DNA of 43,605 nucleotides from a virus: the IMG/VR virus record IMGVR_UViG_3300008450_008428, positions 1 through 43,605 of that record, one strand, 5' to 3'. The stretch's first letter is position 1; each line of letters opens with the position of its first letter. Below the pieces are notes generated by a model that was not told the DNA's origin, ran no database searches, and saw nothing but the letters and a program-made list of their open reading frames with translations. Shown piece after piece: positions 5,594 to 42,269 of the stretch. Position numbers and translations under genes: made by a program.

Positions 5594-5722
5594 ATGTCAG
5601 CATCTTGGAACACACTCAAAGACCACAAAAGTATGAAGCGTTCGTACAGCATGGGCGAAACAAAAAAGAAAGTGAAACCCACAAGAGGAGGTAATGAGAA
5701 GTGGAAAGCACTTCAAGACTAA
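5594..5722 (+). CDS. Hypothetical 42-residue basic protein
   Basis: 42 residues, rich in Lys/Arg and Ser, with two tryptophans. Its 3' part contains an AGAGGAGG stretch followed by an ATG in another frame, but the longer frame here is contiguous with the neighbours. Function unknown; possibly nucleic-acid binding from charge alone. Confidence 0.5.
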   Translation: MSASWNTLKDHKSMKRSYSMGETKKKVKPTRGGNEKWKALQD

Positions 5723-5723
5723 T

Positions 5724-5909
5724 ATGTTTTACATCGGAGATTCTGTCCCTTCAAACAAAAAAGGAACAACAATAAAGACACCTTGCCAGCACTGTGGCAC
5801 CATAGTCGAAAGAGCATATACTAAACGTCCTGCGACATGCCATTCCTGTAAGGAAGAGAGTCAGCGAATTCGAGACAAGGCGAGATACGAAAGGAAAAAA
5901 ATGGTATAA
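5724..5909 (+). CDS. Zinc-ribbon protein
   Basis: 61 residues with two knuckles, C-Q-H-C and C-H-S-C, about 20 residues apart, then a basic Arg/Lys-rich C-terminal helix (ESQRIRDKARYERKK). Likely a small zinc ribbon that binds nucleic acid. The ATG at 5724 follows the preceding stop. An in-frame ATG at 5694 behind a strong AGGAGG is possible and would add ten residues overlapping the 5594 gene. The stop codon lies inside the next promoter's -10. Confidence 0.68.
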   Translation: MFYIGDSVPSNKKGTTIKTPCQHCGTIVERAYTKRPATCHSCKEESQRIRDKARYERKKMV

Positions 5910-6266: not shown

Positions 6267-6446
6267 CCTACTTCTTCTGCGTTTGGGGCTAGCTAGGAAC
6301 GGGGTTAGCTCCTCCACTCATACCGTTCAAGAAAGGTAAGGTGATTCCTATCTCTTGCGAGAGCATAGACTCTCCAAGCCAAACTTATTAGACCGCCCCT
6401 TGTGGACGGTCTACCCTTTGAGTTATGTAAGTGATATTATTTTCTT
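6267..6446 (+). other. Gene-free structured segment
   Basis: 180 bases without an open frame. Visible foldings on the plus strand: a 9-bp stem with two G-U pairs (6285-6293 with 6304-6312), a CTCT/AGAG mini-hairpin near 6351-6362, and a 6-bp AGACCG/CGGTCT stem (about 6390-6412). No long T-run follows, so this is not a clear terminator. It could be a small structured RNA or the 3' end of the small-gene operon's transcript. Confidence 0.5.
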
Positions 6447-6626
6447 ATGAAGAAACGTCCTACCCAAAACAAAATGTTTATAGTAAGAAAGTACGTACTG
6501 GCTATTAGCGCTTCTGATGCCATAAAAAAAGAAAAACAAGTTCCAGTTCACGATGTCTTTATAGATGACGACTGGAGAAAACTAAATGAAGACCAACTCT
6601 CTAAGTCTTTAGGTTTCGCTAAATAA
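6447..6626 (+). CDS. Hypothetical 59-residue protein, last rightward gene
   Basis: 59 residues: a basic N-terminus (KKRPTQNK), a predicted strand (MFIVRKYVLAIS), then acidic helices (FIDDDWRKLNEDQLSKSLGF). Its 3' end overlaps the convergent nuclease gene by 8 nt, so the two transcription units meet tail to tail. No ribosome-binding site. Function unknown. Confidence 0.58.
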   Translation: MKKRPTQNKMFIVRKYVLAISASDAIKKEKQVPVHDVFIDDDWRKLNEDQLSKSLGFAK

Positions 6627-12532: not shown

Positions 12533-12560
12533 ATTGTACATAATGTAAAATGCATTGCAA
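12533..12560 (-). promoter_or_regulatory. Leftward promoter of the HTH gene
   Basis: On the minus strand: TTGCAA (12560-12555), 16-bp spacer, TACAAT (12538-12533), then 8 nt to the ATG at 12524. A start about 7 nt past the -10 gives a leaderless message. Confidence 0.6.
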
Positions 12561-14091: not shown

Positions 14092-14280
14092 CTACATTCT
14101 CTTTCCGAACGCGTCGATTCCTCCTGCACGGTATCGTCCAATGAACACGAAGATACCCGTGACTACTGCGGCAATTGTGGTAATGGTTGTAACGAGAGGG
14201 TCAACACCTACTTGTACACCGATTATTGTAAGTACCCAAGACAAAATCTGAGCGAAGTTTGCTATATATGTTTGTGACAT
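14092..14280 (-). CDS. Holin, two transmembrane segments
   Basis: 62 residues from the ATG at 14280. Two hydrophobic helices (about 8-22 and 30-48), a short loop, and a basic C-terminus with GGIDAFGKR, typical of class II phage holins. It forms the membrane lesion that times lysis and lets the peptidoglycan enzymes out. A TATAAT (minus strand, 14295-14290) stands 9 nt before the ATG, giving an almost leaderless message of its own. It is followed by the transglycosylase gene. Confidence 0.78.
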   Translation of the reverse strand: MSQTYIANFAQILSWVLTIIGVQVGVDPLVTTITTIAAVVTGIFVFIGRYRAGGIDAFGKRM

Positions 14281-14289
14281 GGCTCTTGT

Positions 14290-14317
14290 ATTATACACTA
14301 CTATTTAATTTTGGCTA
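14290..14317 (-). promoter_or_regulatory. Promoter before the holin
   Basis: Minus strand: TAGCCA (14317-14312), 16-bp spacer, perfect TATAAT (14295-14290), 9 nt to the ATG at 14280. It lies at the end of the M23 gene and would let lysis genes be expressed apart from the virion operon. Confidence 0.6.
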
Positions 14318-21535: not shown

Positions 21536-23608
21536 CTATTCTCTAGTTGATACTGGTTGATTTGGTGACATTCTTACGTTTGGACCATGTGCAAGAATTT
21601 GAAAGGCAACGTCTATGTCTACTACCGAGAAGACTGTTTGCATTTCAAAGAAGTCTAGGTCACCTGGTGATTTAAACATTCTGACCTTCAAGAATTCGTC
21701 TTGGTTTGCGTCAGAGGTAACACCTCCAAGTGGTTCTGCTCCCAACACTGCACCACCCAATTGGTTGGTCGCCTGAGGCGAGAACGTGGTGTCAGCGTCA
21801 AGTGGGATTATAGCATAGTTTTTGACACCTGTCACCCCTCGATAGTCGTATTTGATTGTCTCTGTGAGGTTACAGTTGGCTGTCATGTATAGTTCAACGT
21901 AATATTCAGAGAACGTCTTGAGTGCTGCTCTGTCTCCAAAGTTTCTGTAAGCGAATGCCGCAGTGTATGCAATAGGTTTGTTATTGTCATTACGCCCTGT
22001 GAACAATTTGTATGTCTCTGGGTTATCACTTGAATGACCATAAAGTTCACCCCCAATCACAGCAAATCGTCGAATTGGTAACTGTTGTGGTGGTTGCCAG
22101 AAGCCTTTCTCAAGGTCGTAGATGAATACTTTTCCTTCTACAGGACGAGAAATGAGTAGCCAGTTGCGCCAGTATATAGCGTGACCGTTAGTGAAATCTG
22201 CCTCATCAAAATCTGGCTTAATAGGGTCTGAGATAGGTTTAGACTGTGGTGTCTCAACATTCTCAATACGCCCAAGCTCATCAAGTGTCGGTTGCCCTGT
22301 AACAAACAAGACGCTGTTCTTGGCTTGAGCCACAAGGTCTTGGCTCAGTGGGGACTGTCGTGCTCCTGTTTTGAGTTTCTTTATTGTTAGAGCCTCTTTG
22401 GTATTGTCTGAAGAAAGAGTAAAGCTTGTTTTGAAAATACCACCGTTCTTAATACCAATGTACATGTCTTCTTCTTGTGTGAAGAACGCCGTGGGTGTTC
22501 CGTCTAAAGTAAGAAGCGCTCCTTCTCCTGGAAGGCGTGTCGCAGTGTATGTAAAGTCCGTGAAGTCTGTGTTTTTGGAAACATACACAGTGTTTCTTGT
22601 GAGTGAGCCTATATATATTTGGTTGTTTAGAACTCCAATAAGGTCGTTCACTACACCTGAAGCGGGTTTGTTTGTGTTTGTTCGTACGGCTTGAAACACC
22701 AAATCACCTGCCGTATGACCTCCTGCGGCTGGGTCAGGAGTGACTCCTGTGATGGTTGTGGTTCCTTCACCTCCTGTGTAGGTGTATGTAATTCCTCCAA
22801 TAACAATTTGACGTGTTCCGTTTAACAGGAATCGTTCTGCAGCCCACGAGGTAGAACCCTGCTTCGTAATTGTATAAGAAAGTGTCAGGGTATTTGCTGC
22901 TGTTGTCGTGTCGTCTATGGTGTATGCAACAGTTACTGAACCGCTAAGGCCAGAACCTCCTGAAGCAGAAAGAGTTATCACACCATCGCCGACCCGAGAA
23001 CCTGTTGCAACAAGGTTAGAGCCTGCTGAATCTTTATATATGTTTACTGTACGAGTTCCAGCGACATCGGCCAGTGTGTAGTAGAGAACAAAGGCGTTTG
23101 TGTTCGATGTCGTCGCCCCTGTAAATGCCCAAGCAGAAAGTTGGTTAGCAGCGTCCCCCGCTTCTGTTACAGAAGCAACAGATGAAGAAGAGTAGGTTGT
23201 GATGCCGCCAGACCATTCATAAATATTTGCATCACCATTCACAAACAACAGCAAGTCTATAGATTCTGTTGAAGACCACCACTTAGTAAATTGGAAATCT
23301 ACAGCAGACCAGCCGTCCTTTAAGCGCCTCCACGAACCGCTGTAATAAATTTCCAACTCGTCGTCATATGACCTTAATGGAATTTCGACACCAGATGAGT
23401 TTAGCCATTCGTAAGAACCTTCAATTGGTAAATCAGCTGTCGTGTTTGCTGCGCCAAACAATTCGTACCCTCCACGAGACTCAACCTTTTCTCCATCGTT
23501 AATGATGACATTCAAAGAACCAGAAACAAGAGTCCTGGCCATTGAGTTGGTAACGTCTGGCTTAGTCACGTACCCTGTAAACTTGTCGATGAGGTTGTAT
23601 TTTGTCAT
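21536..23608 (-). CDS. Tail nozzle-like beta-propeller protein
   Basis: 690 residues of beta-rich repeats without signal peptide. It begins MTKYNLIDKFTGYVTKPDVTN and has blades with G-x-x-Y/W endings (GGYELFG; NIYEWSGG; QIYIGSLT; ELYGHSSD; YKLFTGRND). This is the style of podovirus nozzle proteins (T7 gp12/P22 gp10 class), which close the tail tube. It overlaps the adaptor gene by 1 nt, as nozzle and adaptor genes often sit together. An inserted immunoglobulin-like stretch around residues 140-260 is plausible. Function by position and fold pattern. Confidence 0.68.
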   Translation of the reverse strand: MTKYNLIDKFTGYVTKPDVTNSMARTLVSGSLNVIINDGEKVESRGGYELFGAANTTADLPIEGSYEWLNSSGVEIPLRSYDDELEIYYSGSWRRLKDGWSAVDFQFTKWWSSTESIDLLLFVNGDANIYEWSGGITTYSSSSVASVTEAGDAANQLSAWAFTGATTSNTNAFVLYYTLADVAGTRTVNIYKDSAGSNLVATGSRVGDGVITLSASGGSGLSGSVTVAYTIDDTTTAANTLTLSYTITKQGSTSWAAERFLLNGTRQIVIGGITYTYTGGEGTTTITGVTPDPAAGGHTAGDLVFQAVRTNTNKPASGVVNDLIGVLNNQIYIGSLTRNTVYVSKNTDFTDFTYTATRLPGEGALLTLDGTPTAFFTQEEDMYIGIKNGGIFKTSFTLSSDNTKEALTIKKLKTGARQSPLSQDLVAQAKNSVLFVTGQPTLDELGRIENVETPQSKPISDPIKPDFDEADFTNGHAIYWRNWLLISRPVEGKVFIYDLEKGFWQPPQQLPIRRFAVIGGELYGHSSDNPETYKLFTGRNDNNKPIAYTAAFAYRNFGDRAALKTFSEYYVELYMTANCNLTETIKYDYRGVTGVKNYAIIPLDADTTFSPQATNQLGGAVLGAEPLGGVTSDANQDEFLKVRMFKSPGDLDFFEMQTVFSVVDIDVAFQILAHGPNVRMSPNQPVSTRE

Positions 23609-24783
23609 TAGCGTCGTGTGTAGCGAGCGCCACGGTTTGCGTAGCGTGATTGCTTCGGAACGATGTCACTCTTGTAGCGCATCATATAAGCCTTTAGCTC
23701 TTCATCTCTCTTGTTCTTAAAGTAATTTACGTCAAACGACCCGTTGTCTCCTTGTAATTCTTGAGAAATGATGTGACCAAGTTCGTAGATAAAAAGGTTT
23801 TCTGCACCAGCATGTTCAAGGTTGATGAGGTCAGTATCTTCAGTTGGAGTCTCAAGCCATGTACCTGAAGAGTCTCTGAACATATATCTTGAGTAATATA
23901 CAAGAGAGTAGATACTTGGTAGTCGCACTATGATTGAGTCTACTCTTACCGTAGACACGGCAGTGCCGTTGTAAGCAAGAGTAAAACGAAGATAATCTAC
24001 GCCAGATGCAACTGGTGTTCCTGTCTCTGTAGCCCCAGACCAATCGAATCTAAGAAGATTCCAACCAGCCGCAAAAGCAGTGGCATCATGTGTCGCTGTT
24101 ACACTTGCCGACCAATAGTTTGCCGAACTTGAACCCCAACGAAGACTTGCGCTTGTTATCGGTGTCGCAGAAGAAAAATATACCCACACAAATACAGAAC
24201 CAACATCTTCGTATGTAGAAAGGTCTGTTGCGGTGAATGTGCTGTTTTCTATATAGCCAGAAGAACCAGCGGCAGCAAGGTCAAACTTAAGAGATGCGCT
24301 TCCTGTAATTTTATACAGTGTGTCAACTTCCAAATTTTGTGCTGACGCAGTTGCCGCCCATGTGCCTACAGCAGTAAGAGATTCGCAATCGTTGATTGTG
24401 ACTCCTGGAGTGAGAGACTTTGAAATCTTCAACTTTTTAACCATTGAGTTGAAATCAACAGTGTAGTCTTGGTCCTGTTTTAGTCGGTCAAATGTTCGTG
24501 TGTCTATCGCTGTTGGCATGTCTCCGCTATCCCTGTTTACTTGAGCGCGTATATCAATAATACGGTCCATGTTCATGTCGGAAGGAGCGACATACGAATA
24601 TACCTCGTCATAGAGAGCGTTAGAAATCTGCTGTTCTCGTATAAGCTCTTTTGGGTCTACCAACAAGAGAATGTTGCCGGCTGCCTCATGGGCCAAGCCG
24701 TAGAAGTCTCTAACCTTGTCAATATTTGAACCATGAATTTTAGAAGCGATTCTGGTTTTAACTTGTGTGAGTGTGAGTGACAT
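23608..24783 (-). CDS. Head-tail adaptor with an inserted carbohydrate-binding-like domain
   Basis: 391 residues. The N-terminal 125 and C-terminal 100 residues are helical, like podovirus adaptor (gp11/gp4-type) proteins that bind the portal ring. Between them lies a beta-sandwich (about 127-290) with the look of a jelly-roll carbohydrate-binding module: ITGSASLKFDL, a VFVWVYFSS strand, GWNLLRFDWS and a VRVDSIIVR closing strand. The insert may decorate the neck and bind glycans. The gene has its own TGTGGTATAAT promoter 8 nt before the ATG, giving a leaderless message. Confidence 0.68.
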   Translation of the reverse strand: MSLTLTQVKTRIASKIHGSNIDKVRDFYGLAHEAAGNILLLVDPKELIREQQISNALYDEVYSYVAPSDMNMDRIIDIRAQVNRDSGDMPTAIDTRTFDRLKQDQDYTVDFNSMVKKLKISKSLTPGVTINDCESLTAVGTWAATASAQNLEVDTLYKITGSASLKFDLAAAGSSGYIENSTFTATDLSTYEDVGSVFVWVYFSSATPITSASLRWGSSSANYWSASVTATHDATAFAAGWNLLRFDWSGATETGTPVASGVDYLRFTLAYNGTAVSTVRVDSIIVRLPSIYSLVYYSRYMFRDSSGTWLETPTEDTDLINLEHAGAENLFIYELGHIISQELQGDNGSFDVNYFKNKRDEELKAYMMRYKSDIVPKQSRYANRGARYTRR

Positions 24784-24791
24784 TGTATTGA

Positions 24792-24820
24792 ATTATACCA
24801 CAAAACGTGCTTATTGTCTG
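24792..24820 (-). promoter_or_regulatory. Promoter before the adaptor gene
   Basis: Minus strand: CAGACA (24820-24815), 17-bp spacer, extended TGTGGTATAAT ending at 24792, then 8 nt to the ATG at 24783. The upstream TTTTGTGG is shared with the 38333 and 30326 sites. Confidence 0.72.
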
Positions 24821-29558: not shown

Positions 29559-30317
29559 CTAAGTATACGAGTAGGTCAGATTAAATATCTCGCTAGCGTC
29601 AGCATTGTATATCGTCAATGTACTGCTGGTTTTTGTGAAGTTGTAACTTGCTCCTTCTGTTTGTGGAATGTTGTTTCTGTATACACAAATTATCCGACTA
29701 AACGTAGCCCAGTTTGTGAGCTGTGTTAGGTCAATCGTAACGTCAGAGCCTGACTGAACAGCAGTAAGAATGTATTGCGTGGTCACTGTCTCCCCACTAG
29801 TCGTAGTACCCGAACCGCCACCTCTAGCATAGATTTTTCCTTTTGAGGCTGACATTCCTCCCACGGGTACACCTGGAGTATTTTTAAGCTTACCGTAATC
29901 AAGACGCGAAGCGCCTTTTGCTGCCTCAATTTTCTTAATGAAGTATTCTGGCGGAATCTTATCTATCATTGCTTGGATGTCAGGGAGTTCAGCGACATCT
30001 CCCTTCTCGCCCCTTTCACCTTGTGGTCCTTGTTCGCCCCTTTCACCTTGTGGTCCTTGTTCGCCCCTTTCACCTTGTGGTCCTTGCTCACCCTTTTCAC
30101 CCTTGTCTCCTTTTTCTCCACGAAGACCTCTTGGCCCTGTGAAACCTCTTTCACCCTTAGGTCCCTGAGACCCATCCTTACCCTTAACTGAAATAAGCTC
30201 GACACCATCAAGGTCAACACTTATTTTTTGTTTAGATTTTAGCGTAGAAGAAATTTCAGCAAGTTGTTTGCCTAAAGAAGCAAGTGCGGCGATAACAGCT
30301 TGCGCAAGGGGATTCAT
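29559..30317 (-). CDS. Collagen-like fibre protein
   Basis: 252 residues. A helical N-terminus (about 1-30) and short linker precede 21 G-X-Y triplets (about residues 46-108), including three copies of [10 protein letters not shown] helical and a Ser/Thr/beta C-terminal domain follow ([27 protein letters not shown]). Collagen-like rods with a trimerising tip are common in phage tail fibres. No signal peptide, unlike its neighbours. A promoter of the TGTGGTATAAT class (here GTGGGATAAT) lies 8 nt before the ATG. Confidence 0.82.
30007..30087 (-). repeat. 27-bp tandem repeat, three units
   Basis: Units at 30007-30033, 30034-30060 and 30061-30087 (the last with two base changes near its end) encode GEQGPQGER-type nonapeptides. 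Such repeats change number by slippage or recombination and would change fibre length. Confidence 0.85.
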
Positions 30318-34208: not shown

Positions 34209-36215
34209 TTAGAACTCAGACGACATCGAAGCTCCTAGACTGTCGCCTCCTGTTAGCTGTCCTACTAAGTTTCCATTAACACCTTTCTGTTGAAAGCCAG
34301 CCCCCATCCCTGCCGAAGCAGCAGCAGCTGCCTCAGTTGGATTAGCACCCATCATGGTCTGTGGTTGAGGCTGCGCCTTCTTAATGTAGTCACCACTCTT
34401 TCCTGGCTTGTACACCTCAAACAAGAAGTCACGAGTAACAGCCTCCTGATTGGCAACAGGGTTTTGGATAGCGCGGTCGTATGCCTCAAGGTTAAGCGCT
34501 TTCTCAAGAGCTTTAGAACGTGGCTCCATTTCGTCTGTTGATACAATGACACGATACTTAAGCGAGCGAACTGCGGCAGGGTTGGCACGCATGATTTTCT
34601 TATTGCCGTTTCGCTCTTCTTGCTCAAGAAGGTCGAGTGATTCATCTAGATACTCTTCCTCCGTCATGTATGGACGAGAGATGAGGGACGCGTCGAAGCG
34701 GACTTCACGCGATACCATCTTTCCGTTCATTGCTTTCGCAGGAAGGACATACGAACGGTACTTAAGTCCATCAGTGAGAGCATCTACTTCTGCAACTGTC
34801 ATGTTGTAGAGGATGTCGTCGAGCATGAGAGTTCCAATGTCCTCCACCAAGAACTTGTTCATCTTGCCAAAAAGACCAAGAGCGATTGCTGCGTTCTTCT
34901 CAAGAAGCAATGCCTCACGAGCCGTGCCTGGACCAGAGCCACTCTGCACACCTTGTCGTAGTGAGTCTTGTGATGACTCTGAGATGGAGCGCTCAACAAG
35001 ACCAATAGCCTCAAGACCTGCACGGATATCTGTGCGAGGACCAATGTTCTCAAGCTTGGTGTCTGGGTTCTCAAAGTACGTGATGAGTCCTGGTACAACG
35101 ACGTTACTTGCAAGACCTCCTTGTGAACCGTAAAGCGCCATTGGCGGTTCGTTTGAAAGTATCGCACCGTCCATGATGACGTTGTACAGCGCATCAACAA
35201 GCTCTTGGTCTGGTCCAATCTTTGCCGCTGCTGATTTGTAGTAGTAGAACTGACCGTTGTTGATGTACTCGTATCCACTCTTCGCAAATGGGTATCGCTT
35301 ATCACGACGACGCATTGGTTGATTAGGGTCAGTCACACAAATGCCGTTAAGGAACGTCACCTCAAGGTCGAGCATTCGGCAGTACCACGTTGTCTCTTTT
35401 ACAAGATTGTCTCCTTCGAGGTTTTCGTCTTGCACATCGTAAAACAGTGATGTCGACTCGTCGTATACAGCAATCTTTCCTGCCTCAACGTAGTCTATGT
35501 TTGGCGAGTTACGGTAAATAACTTTCGCCTGAAGCGCATCAATATAGCGAGAGCGAATAATAAATCGCTGCTTTTGTATGTCTGGTTCGTATAGGTTCGC
35601 AATGTAGATTTCCTGACAAGGAACAACATTGAAGAAGAATCCAGACAAGACTGAATCCTCGACATCTTCTGTCGTATATGTCCCGTCTTCTTGCTTTGTG
35701 CGTTGTACGCGCATGACTTTCTCATAGCCCATGTGCATATACGCTGCAGGTTCCACCAACGCCTGAATGACAGAACGCAAGAACACACGCTCATAGTCGC
35801 TATTGTCTATCACCCACTCAAAAAGTGTATCGAGTGCCATTGCTGCACCACGGTCTTCTTCGTCTTCTGAATTCTGAGCGAAAACAGTAGGCTTAATGAT
35901 GTTCGCTGAGACGTGTGCAGCTATCGAAATGAGTTTGTTGCGTGTTATTGGGCGTACGGTCTGCGCACGCCATGATTCATCTGGGTCGTCTGAACGTGGA
36001 GGAATGTATGTATTAAATGCCTTTTGGTTGATGTCTATTTCCTGAATTACAGAACGGCCGTTAAACTCAGGAAGAGGACGGTTCATTATGTCGTCTCCAA
36101 TATCAAAATCCCGCGCGGCCATTGACCACACGTTCTTCTCTGCATCATTTGGTTGGTACAAAGACTTTGGTGACGTTATTCGGTCTTTCTTGTCTCGGGT
36201 AAGATTGGCTCGCAT
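34209..36215 (-). CDS. Portal protein, podovirus type
   Basis: 668 residues. The N-terminal half alternates helices and strands like portal clip/stem regions; FFFNVVPCQEIYIANLYEPD and RSRYID stretches are in the style of podovirus/P22-type portals. The C-terminal region has the long helix with GTAREALLLEKNAAIALG, as in portal wing/crown domains, then a Gln/Gly/Ala-rich tail. A dodecamer of it forms the DNA channel and packaging motor base. Position directly after the terminase genes supports this. Confidence 0.82.
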   Translation of the reverse strand: MRANLTRDKKDRITSPKSLYQPNDAEKNVWSMAARDFDIGDDIMNRPLPEFNGRSVIQEIDINQKAFNTYIPPRSDDPDESWRAQTVRPITRNKLISIAAHVSANIIKPTVFAQNSEDEEDRGAAMALDTLFEWVIDNSDYERVFLRSVIQALVEPAAYMHMGYEKVMRVQRTKQEDGTYTTEDVEDSVLSGFFFNVVPCQEIYIANLYEPDIQKQRFIIRSRYIDALQAKVIYRNSPNIDYVEAGKIAVYDESTSLFYDVQDENLEGDNLVKETTWYCRMLDLEVTFLNGICVTDPNQPMRRRDKRYPFAKSGYEYINNGQFYYYKSAAAKIGPDQELVDALYNVIMDGAILSNEPPMALYGSQGGLASNVVVPGLITYFENPDTKLENIGPRTDIRAGLEAIGLVERSISESSQDSLRQGVQSGSGPGTAREALLLEKNAAIALGLFGKMNKFLVEDIGTLMLDDILYNMTVAEVDALTDGLKYRSYVLPAKAMNGKMVSREVRFDASLISRPYMTEEEYLDESLDLLEQEERNGNKKIMRANPAAVRSLKYRVIVSTDEMEPRSKALEKALNLEAYDRAIQNPVANQEAVTRDFLFEVYKPGKSGDYIKKAQPQPQTMMGANPTEAAAAASAGMGAGFQQKGVNGNLVGQLTGGDSLGASMSSEF

Positions 36216-36225
36216 GATTGTTTAG

Positions 36226-36402
36226 CTAGGCTTCATAGACGTTAATCGACACAGCGCGCGAACAGGCCTTGCAGCGGTGAGCATGTGAGTTTTTCTTTTT
36301 GCACGGAATTTTTGATTTATTGCACCAAAGCTTTTTTCCATCATCGCATGACTTACACGGGTAATCTAAATAACCAACGGCATGGACCTCTGTCATTTCC
36401 AT
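36226..36402 (-). CDS. Small zinc-finger protein between terminase and portal
   Basis: 58 residues. Cysteines at 16, 19, 27, 34, 44 and 47 and His at 40 and 42 could form one or two metal sites, and the protein is Lys-rich. The ATG at 36402 lies 7 nt after a perfect TATAAT, so the message should be leaderless. The frame fills the gap of 210 bases between the terminase stop (36426) and the portal start (36215). Small zinc proteins near terminases sometimes affect packaging, but no family is recognised. Confidence 0.72.
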   Translation of the reverse strand: MEMTEVHAVGYLDYPCKSCDDGKKLWCNKSKIPCKKKNSHAHRCKACSRAVSINVYEA

Positions 36403-36409
36403 TTGAAAT

Positions 36410-36438
36410 ATTATACCACGAAGAACTACCGACGTCCA
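36410..36438 (-). promoter_or_regulatory. Promoter before the zinc-finger and portal genes
   Basis: Minus strand: TGGACG (36438-36433; 4 of 6), 17-bp spacer, extended GTGGTATAAT ending at 36410, then 7 nt to the ATG. It overlaps the terminase gene's 3' end. Confidence 0.72.
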
Positions 36439-38332: not shown

Positions 38333-38347
38333 ACTATACCACAAAAC
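38333..38347 (-). promoter_or_regulatory. Extended -10 promoter before the terminase genes
   Basis: Minus strand TTTTGTGGTATAGT ends at 38333, 16 nt before the terminase ATG; the -35 region (TTCCCT, 17-bp spacing) is poor. Same class as the 24792 and 30326 sites. Confidence 0.6.
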
Positions 38348-38402: not shown

Positions 38403-38431
38403 ATTATACCCCACCCTACCCCACCTGTCAA
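38403..38431 (-). promoter_or_regulatory. Perfect consensus sigma70 promoter, leftward
   Basis: Minus strand: TTGACA (38431-38426), 17-bp spacer, TATAAT (38408-38403). Both hexamers are exact. It drives the terminase/virion operon about 80 nt upstream of the first ATG. Confidence 0.88.
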
Positions 38432-38470: not shown

Positions 38471-38500
38471 AGCGTCGCACAATGTAAATTGTGCGACGCT
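38471..38500 (-). terminator. Perfect 13-bp hairpin, probable leftward terminator
   Basis: AGCGTCGCACAAT (38471-38483) pairs fully with ATTGTGCGACGCT (38488-38500), 4-nt loop. On the minus strand it is followed by GTTTTTA, so leftward RNA would be terminated before reaching the consensus promoter at 38403. A second palindrome, GGCTTA-CC-TAAGCC, lies at 38512-38525, and TAAGCCAT occurs on both sides of the hairpin. It may also be a replication or protein-binding site. Confidence 0.65.
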
Positions 38501-38605: not shown

Positions 38606-38765
38606 GCGAGAAGAGGTATATAAAAAATGAGAAAAAGACTATTATTTTCAAAAAATATTACGTTTATAGAAATAAGACCTAGACAAAAATGAAAAAATGT
38701 GGTATAATAATTTAAGAGACAAAAAACAAAAGTCTTTTTCTCATTTTTTCTATTCCCCTTCTCGC
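38606..38765. repeat. 35-bp imperfect inverted repeat flanking a promoter
   Basis: Arms 38606-38640 and 38731-38765 match at 32 of 35 positions in inverted orientation, including a perfect 19-bp core (38622-38640 with 38731-38749). The 90 bases between them are A+T-rich and contain the rightward promoter 38680-38708. No recombinase gene is recognised, so an origin, cruciform or operator is as likely as an invertible segment. Confidence 0.82.
38680..38708 (+). promoter_or_regulatory. Rightward promoter inside the inverted repeat
   Basis: TAGACA (38680-38685; 5 of 6), 17-bp spacer, perfect TATAAT (38703-38708) with the extension TGTGG. It should drive the AAA+/VWA operon, with a leader of over 350 bases. 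Confidence 0.8.
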
Positions 38766-39074
38766 ACAACGCACAACAAAACACAACAAACGCCTTACTC
38801 TCTCAGGCATAACTACCAAAAACACCCCAAAACTCGCCCACGCAAAACCACCCACGAACACACCCCAAACAGCACACGACCAAGACACCACAAGAGGAGG
38901 TTTTATAGGTAAAAAAGGTGTTTCGAAATTATGTCAATTTTTAGAGTTATTAGGTGAAATCGCAAAAGTGTGGTATAATAAGTTATCCACTTTCTACCCC
39001 AAGTCAATACCTCAATCACGTGCTAGCCTACAAATACCACTTCATATCGTGGTATTAAAAATAAAAGCAAACGT
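38709..39074 (+). other. Long leader of the rightward operon
   Basis: 366 bases without a confident gene. It includes the right arm of the inverted repeat, a T-poor A/C-rich stretch (38761-38890), a strong AGAGGAGG ribosome-binding-like site near 38892-38899 with no good ATG after it (only a 7-codon GTG frame), the second promoter and a DnaA-box-like TTATCCAC (38983-38990). From about 38890 to 39091 one frame is open without ATG/GTG/TTG at a useful place. Confidence 0.55.
38969..38979 (+). promoter_or_regulatory. Second rightward promoter, TGTGGTATAAT
   Basis: TGTGGTATAAT at 38969-38979 is identical to the site at 38698-38708, but there is no clear -35. A DnaA-box-like TTATCCAC starts 4 bases after it, so DnaA could compete with or regulate it. 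Confidence 0.62.
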
Positions 39075-40848: not shown

Positions 40849-41148
40849 ATGCTCACCTTACACGAAACGCTAGAGGAAAAGGGTATCGACCCTGCTACGT
40901 GGAACGAGCACGACACAATAAGGGACATAAACGCCGTGCTGTACGATTGCAGGCTACCCTTGCAACTACTTCCTTACGAGGGCTTACTGCTTGCGGTATA
41001 CAACTCAACGTATCTAGGAAAGTCAATAGTACTCACGTACACAGCGTACACGGACACGCCGACCCTATTTGCACTCGCGACACACCTCACAAACTTACTC
41101 GAGCAAGGGGAACTAATAGACGAACATCTTGCACTAAAAACACAATAA
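40849..41148 (+). CDS. Hypothetical protein upstream of the AAA+ gene
   Basis: 99 residues. Mixed alpha/beta with many Leu/Thr/Tyr; contains WNEHDTIRDINAVLYDC and a C-terminal acidic helix (LLEQGELIDEHLALK). The ATG at 40849 is chosen because it follows the previous stop; longer in-frame starts would overlap that gene. It ends 2 nt before the AAA+ start. Probably part of the same pathway. Confidence 0.68.
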   Translation: MLTLHETLEEKGIDPATWNEHDTIRDINAVLYDCRLPLQLLPYEGLLLAVYNSTYLGKSIVLTYTAYTDTPTLFALATHLTNLLEQGELIDEHLALKTQ

Positions 41149-41150
41149 CT

Positions 41151-42269
41151 ATGACCGCCACTAAACAAAAGACAACCACCGCAAAGCCAAAAGCGACACG
41201 CAAGCGCACTATTAAACTGCTTGCAGACTTGCCAATCGCAACTGAGGGAGCAGAACACGTACCGCACCACGCACAGCCCTATCACGACCACGACGGACTA
41301 CTCTCTATGCTCATGCTCGCCTTGAACGAAAATATGCCTGCACTCGTTATCGGAGACACAGGCACAGGCAAGACAAGTGCTATCAGACACCTAGCAAAGG
41401 TACACGGCGCACCGTTTAGGCGTATCAACCTAAACGGAGGGACAACCGTGGACGAACTCACAGGGCGTATAATGCTAAACAAAGACGGCACAGTGTGGAT
41501 TGACGGAGCCTTGACCGAAGCCATGCGTAAAGGGTACTGGATTGTACTCGACGAAATAAACGCTTGTGGAGCAGACGTCCTATTCCTATTGCACTCACTG
41601 CTAGACGATGACCGTATGATTGTGCTAACGGAGCATAACGGAGAAGTGGTGCGACCTCACGAAGCCTTCAGAGTATTTGCTACGGCAAACCCTACAGGCG
41701 ACTATGCAGGAACTCGTGAAATGAACAAGGCACTTCTCTCACGATTCCCTATTGTCCTCAACGCAAACTATCCGACGGTAGCACGTGAAATTGCCATTAT
41801 TGCCGAGCGTGTACCAGAACTCGCCGAAGAACTCACCACTGCACTAGTAAAGACAGCTCACGGAGCACGACAAGCGCACAAGGAGGGAAGGCTTGACTTC
41901 ATTTTCTCAACTCGAGATATTCTCAACACGGCGTATATTACCGCACGAATGGGAGGGAACGCCTTAGCAGTAAAAAGTGCTATGAAAGTATGTATTGCAG
42001 GCAAATGCTCAAAGGAGGACGCAGGCGCAATATCAGATATCCTAAACACGCACCTTAAGGGAGAAGAAACCGCACAAGTAAAGACAAGGGAGCAGTGTAT
42101 CGCCGAGTACCTAGGCAAAATAGAGTGCAATTCTTGCCACGCTAAGGGACTTGTCGACGCAGGCAACCCAGTACCAGACGGCGACACTATCCGTTATGCT
42201 TGCGCCTGCGGGTATTGCTACTGGCTCACCGTAAACAAGGACGGCACAAAAATTACTCACACCACCTAG
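41151..42269 (+). CDS. MoxR/CobS-like AAA+ ATPase with C-terminal zinc ribbon
   Basis: 372 residues. Lys/Thr-rich N-terminus (1-20), then an AAA+ core: Walker A GDTGTGKT (68-75), Walker B IVLDEIN (131-137), sensor 1 (ATANPT, 177-182) and a probable Arg finger in LLSRFP (Arg198). The pattern is that of MoxR/CbbQ/CobS ATPases, hexameric motors that remodel targets together with a VWA protein. The C-terminus adds C-x2-C and C-x-C-x2-C (about residues 325-360), a zinc ribbon not usual for MoxR proteins. The VWA partner is the next gene, 6 nt downstream. The longer in-frame start at 40899 would overlap the 40849 gene and is rejected. Confidence 0.92.
   Translation: MTATKQKTTTAKPKATRKRTIKLLADLPIATEGAEHVPHHAQPYHDHDGLLSMLMLALNENMPALVIGDTGTGKTSAIRHLAKVHGAPFRRINLNGGTTVDELTGRIMLNKDGTVWIDGALTEAMRKGYWIVLDEINACGADVLFLLHSLLDDDRMIVLTEHNGEVVRPHEAFRVFATANPTGDYAGTREMNKALLSRFPIVLNANYPTVAREIAIIAERVPELAEELTTALVKTAHGARQAHKEGRLDFIFSTRDILNTAYITARMGGNALAVKSAMKVCIAGKCSKEDAGAISDILNTHLKGEETAQVKTREQCIAEYLGKIECNSCHAKGLVDAGNPVPDGDTIRYACACGYCYWLTVNKDGTKITHTT

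Follow-up and report, generated by a model that had tools for sequence, protein, structure and literature searches.

The repeated occurrence of promoter-like -10 boxes directly upstream of ATG codons in the genome of this uncultured tailed phage raises the question of whether the genes behind them are expressed from leaderless messages, i.e., mRNAs that begin at or next to the AUG. The window, by which we mean the whole 43,605-nt stretch of DNA analyzed (IMG/VR record IMGVR_UViG_3300008450_008428), had been described in an initial annotation as carrying five such placements on the minus strand, which were attributed to deliberate leaderless expression, rare in most bacterial phages. Its observation on sequence and spacing was confirmed, and the five distances between the -10 box and ATG (7, 8, 8, 9, and 8 nt) were exact (Table 1).

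Table 1. Promoter-like elements and associated genes in the window.
Feature	Position (strand)	Sequence or context	Relation to start codon
TATAAT-N7-ATG36402	36410..36438 (-)	TGGACG-17-TATAAT, TGG ahead of -10; terminase-portal junction	7 nt
GATAAT-N8-ATG30317	30326..30354 (-)	TTAACA-17-GATAAT, TTTTTGTGG ahead of -10	8 nt
TATAAT-N8-ATG24783	24792..24820 (-)	CAGACA-17-TATAAT, TGTGG ahead of -10	8 nt
TATAAT-N9-ATG14280	14290..14317 (-)	TAGCCA-16-TATAAT, without TGn	9 nt
TACAAT-N8-ATG12524 (weak candidate)	12533..12560 (-)	TTGCAA-16-TACAAT; chance level, uncounted	8 nt
TGATATTAT	6432..6440 (+)	absent from the initial annotation	ends 6 nt 5' of ATG 6447; leaderless-spaced
Late-operon main promoter	38403..38431 (-)	perfect TTGACA-17-TATAAT, 12/12	leader of ~80 nt
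TGTGGTATAGT	38333..38343 (-)	precedes a 161-aa gene located ahead of the large terminase	17 nt 5' of ATG 38316; short leader
Divergent promoter	38680..38708 (+)	TAGACA-17-TATAAT with TGTGG	with leader
TGTGGTATAAT	38969..38979 (+)	rightward	~95 nt 5' of ATG 39075; with leader
58-aa ORF	36226..36402 (-)	located between the terminase and portal genes; two CxxC pairs	predicted leaderless
668-aa protein, family A3	34209..36215 (-)	gene after the 58-aa ORF	
252-aa collagen-like tail-fibre protein	29559..30317 (-)		predicted leaderless start
391-aa protein, family A1	23608..24783 (-)	function not assigned	predicted leaderless start
62-aa hydrophobic protein	14092..14280 (-)		predicted leaderless start

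The sites read as TATAAT with TTGACA-like -35 boxes. Exact copies of TGTGGTATAAT were present in the window only at 24792, 38698, and 38969, and near matches were found at 36410 (CGTGGTATAAT), 30326 (TGTGGGATAAT), and 38333 (TGTGGTATAGT); 14290 and 12533 were outside this class. The sequence said to be shared by three leaderless sites, TTTTGTGG, occurred at 24792 and 30326, but its third copy was that at 38333, 17 nt from the ATG. The class is mixed rather than leaderless throughout, as the promoters at 38333, 38403, 38698, and 38969 have leaders. An extended -10 element (TGn with a -35 box at 16–18 nt) was found at 24792, 30326, and 36410, and TGn was missing at 14290.

In the window, 59 predicted genes that start with ATG were scored for a -10 box (TATAAT, or TGn with one mismatch) by its distance to ATG, and the null model was obtained by shuffling these upstream stretches with their dinucleotides kept (n = 200). 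The box ended 6–9 nt upstream of ATG in five genes (36402, 30317, 24783, 14280, and 6447), compared with 0.15 in shuffled sequence, and none of the 200 shuffles reached five such sites; the 60 nt ahead of the gene starts in the window contained a single other -10 box. This genome-wide scan had been proposed in the initial annotation, and the shuffled counts did not equal those observed. With at most one mismatch, TGNGGTATAAT occurred 10 times in the window (1.48 expected), a count reached in none of 100 shuffles. When a -35 box was required, 36410, 30326, and 24792 were among the seven best matches between 20.5 and 40 kb, each with TGn and a 17-nt spacer. The total of promoter-like matches in that region was not above that in shuffles, so the weight is carried by rank and spacer, and the -35 box at exactly 17 nt in the three best sites provides support beyond the original argument. 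Among the five annotated placements, 36410, 30326, 24792, and 14290 stand and 6447 is to be added, whereas 12533 was dropped as a promoter, its score of 9/12 lying within the chance range.

The same spacing was recovered from 1771 genes in both sets of relatives, comprising about 150 viral contigs that are distantly related. Strict TGnTATAAT located 6–9 nt upstream of ATG was found 26 times, compared with 0.30 in shuffled sequence, and a relaxed profile with 2 sites at 5 nt climbed abruptly to 31 at 6 nt, the spacing that would make the A of ATG the +1 position. After similar contexts were removed, 65 independent ones were left, with modes at 6–11 and 25–32 nt. Frames of at least 60 codons opened at 6–9 nt by ATG numbered 26, and GTG and TTG were zero among the codons listed. 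The same rule detected no site in lambda, Pam1, or 50 kb of E. coli, and in one uncultured phage it detected a site at 11 nt, adjoining AGAGG. Since a permuted-hexamer control was weak in the relatives, where one AT-rich permutation exceeded TATAAT, dinucleotide shuffles and the TG rule were used instead.

Not every AT-rich signal preceding a start is a promoter (PMC5397173), and sequence upstream of ATG in this lineage is indeed AT-rich (AATTAA and similar), which partly inflates the relaxed TATAAT counts. It is nevertheless highly improbable that a chance resemblance of such bases to -10 boxes, in a genome lacking Shine-Dalgarno sites, accounts for the pattern, given that shuffles retaining dinucleotides yielded so few sites in both the window and the relatives and that the sites are accompanied by TG and -35 boxes. 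For the present sites, TGn, the -35 box, and the sharp onset together answer the published caveat.

Shine-Dalgarno sites were almost absent from the minus-strand genes of the window and were lacking upstream of the leaderless-spaced starts. At loci of the 391-aa family, Shine-Dalgarno four-mers preceded 48 of 1071 genes, fewer than at the control position (115 of 1071). Phages sharing only a related terminase had them at 67 of 154 genes (control, 11); these were rejected as members of the lineage, presumably having other hosts, and were kept as controls. Three plus-strand genes of the left arm (3720, 5694, and 6096) do have Shine-Dalgarno sites, which means that such sites are not entirely absent from the phage. 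The sites at 5694 (GAGGAGGT) and 6096 (GGAGGTGG) were strong, and TGGTATAAT followed by AGGAGGT was observed at 5905 in the same arm. Overall, the above-chance spacing in the window, the 6-nt onset and ATG-only starts in the relatives, and the missing Shine-Dalgarno sites support leaderless expression, or expression with a leader of 1–4 nt that spacing does not distinguish from zero, as the best reading of these sites.

The sites need to be viewed in their operon context. The late operon on the minus strand contains genes for the large terminase, the 58-aa ORF, the 668-aa portal-like protein, the capsid, tail fibres, and the 391-aa protein, among others, mostly separated by gaps shorter than 35 nt, and four internal promoters lie in gaps of 20–33 nt. 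At its start, the operon has the perfect promoter at 38403 and a second box at 38333, both with leaders. Convincing terminators were not found ahead of the internal promoters, and it is therefore probable that longer transcripts, read through from upstream, carry the late genes as well. The perfect promoter at 38403 is preceded, at a distance of approximately 40 nt, by a 13-bp palindrome (AGCGTCGCACAATTTACATTGTGCGACGCT, 38471–38500), possibly an operator or terminator.

This context suggests a less radical explanation, in which the internal promoters are real but the 5' ends lie a few bases off the ATG, translation proceeds mainly from the long late mRNA, and the closeness is a by-product of short gaps, where any promoter would be near an ATG. 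The terminase-portal junction bears on this point. Its promoter was kept where portal proteins are only ~50% identical, as TGTGGTATAAT-N9-ATG in L122, as TGTTATAAT-N6-ATG in L123, and as TATAAT-N6-ATG in L124, where it precedes an inserted small ORF placed as in the window but encoding a protein unrelated to the 58-aa ORF. More distant relatives (L188, L191, and L193) had the junction promoter at 7–8 nt. In L120, L121, and L176, the same promoter was 16–28 nt from ATG (26 nt in L120 and 16 nt in L121), meaning that strict leaderlessness is not required, and this, together with the lack of convincing terminators, favors the by-product explanation. However, small gaps would not yield an exact 6-nt onset or a second mode at 25–32 nt, the start codon at leaderless spacing is ATG, and the same onset appears in Patescibacteria chromosomes (see below); we thus consider the by-product explanation unlikely and retain the leaderless reading.

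The 391-aa family was present in 69 viral contigs, and its homologues in L025 and L058 had TGnTATAAT 9 and 8 nt upstream of ATG, respectively. The 668-aa protein had no match in PHROGs and Pfam searches and was taken as the portal because it comes after the large terminase in gene order; homologues occurred in at least 80 viral contigs. Against 50,697 phage records, the 391-aa and portal-like proteins showed no close match, the exception being a weak match to Gordonia phages over 36% of the query, and a nucleotide search of the phage collection gave no match. The 59-aa ORF starting at 6447 on the plus strand had homologues in L195 and L062, and those of the 58-, 62-, and 66-aa ORFs were absent from the relatives' loci examined. 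From its sequence, the 62-aa protein may be holin-like. A leaderless-spaced box preceded the portal homologue in 9 of 38 cases and that of the 391-aa protein in 4 of 72, but the capsid homologue in 0 of 53, an unevenness indicating that the promoter belongs to particular genes.

Regarding the host, TATAAT combined with TTGACA is a bacterial promoter. A genome scan for the 391-aa family retrieved one Candidatus Microgenomatus bin, one unclassified bacterial bin, and one Pacearchaeota bin. The phylum of the Microgenomatus bin, taken as Patescibacteria from the bin name, was represented by 59 genomes, in which TGTGGTATAAT-N6-8-ATG occurred 20 times and the reversed pattern once. TATAAT-N6-8-ATG was also more frequent than TATAAT-N12-14-ATG (2948 and 2012, respectively), and higher in 48 of the 59 genomes. 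Sampled Patescibacteria stretches, a non-random set drawn mostly from genomes picked for holding the long motif, showed the sharp 6-nt onset as well as partial Shine-Dalgarno use (66 vs 37 of 356). In Nanoarchaeota, TATAAT-N6-8-ATG numbered 3298 against 2311 for the reversed pattern, the only control compared there, and the long TGTGGTATAAT form occurred once, and its reverse twice, across 40 genomes from the phylum of the Pacearchaeota bin. The Nanoarchaeota excess indicates that the short pattern measured against a reversed control is unspecific and that the long form alone is specific; the argument for Patescibacteria therefore rests on the spacing control (N12-14) and the long motif. A contig binned as Pacearchaeota (L026 / G001 contig C22) was observed to carry the lineage's portal and 391-aa family, and is probably a misbinned phage contig. 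Neither the window nor 17 relatives contained a tRNA.

Patescibacteria are the likeliest, though not a proven, host phylum. Independently of the other alternatives, and with the leaderless reading kept, the host might instead be a different bacterium, with TATAAT promoters and few Shine-Dalgarno sites. A clear relative was present in just one patescibacterial bin (Microgenomatus) among 379 genomes, and phage contigs are often misbinned, but the 20-to-1 ratio of the long motif in Patescibacteria, the one bacterial phylum whose genomes were sampled, argues against another host, which we regard as possible yet less likely. With Patescibacteria as the probable host, the arrangement was probably copied from a host habit. 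Compared with well-studied phages the placements are unusual, but for the probable host phylum they look ordinary, so "deliberate" is to be understood as host-like rather than phage-specific.

We consider it likely that host-type internal promoters generate leaderless late mRNAs in a probable Patescibacteria phage. Sigma-70 promoters of the host type, with an extended -10 (TGnTATAAT) and a -35 box at 17 nt, would be placed inside the late-operon gaps, and transcription would start at, or within ~3 nt of, the A of ATG. The resulting mRNA would be AUG-first and translated without a Shine-Dalgarno site. The internal promoters would boost the portal region, the tail-fibre gene, the 391-aa gene, and the small hydrophobic gene, adding to read-through from 38403, and late genes without one would rely on stop-start proximity for translation off the polycistronic mRNA, again with no Shine-Dalgarno sites involved. 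The phage represents an uncultured lineage in which such sites are missing almost throughout and which probably infects Patescibacteria, where the same arrangement is used. More tentatively, at slightly under an even chance, this may be a large tailed-phage lineage on Patescibacteria that has largely abandoned Shine-Dalgarno sites, with leaderless TGnTATAAT mRNA as a main route for structural genes, mirroring a widespread leaderless habit of the host phylum that has so far gone undescribed.

The lambda cI message from PRM is the classical leaderless message, and its -10 box, TAGATT, ends 6 nt upstream of ATG, like the present sites; it serves one regulatory gene, whereas several structural-operon genes are concerned here, together with a lineage-wide scarcity of Shine-Dalgarno sites. 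Sigma-70 extended -10 promoters are alike in TGnTATAAT and the -35 box at 17 nt but differ in position relative to the start codon. To our knowledge, phage leaderless messages are known mainly from single regulatory genes, and the leaderless-type arrangement here repeats at structural genes across a Shine-Dalgarno-poor lineage. Zheng et al. (2011, PMC3160421) called bacterial leaderless genes from a -10 signal lying ~12 bp ahead of the start codon; those genes similarly lack a Shine-Dalgarno site and have a TAtaaT box immediately before the start, in some cases with TG, but in the available text of that study lambda is the only phage and TM7 is unmentioned, whereas a phage lineage and Patescibacteria are concerned here. 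Our literature search, with subscription journals and preprints largely outside its scope, found no description of leaderless genes in Patescibacteria. If the host reading is true, TGTGGTATAAT-N6-8-ATG would mark promoters as well as start codons, both in Patescibacteria and in the phages infecting them, enabling better gene-start calls and helping to link uncultured phages with their hosts.

An AAA ATPase gene of the MoxR/CbbQ type (40899–42269) and a weak von Willebrand A-domain gene (72–731) were also observed at opposite ends of the record, and these may be neighbors if the genome is circular.
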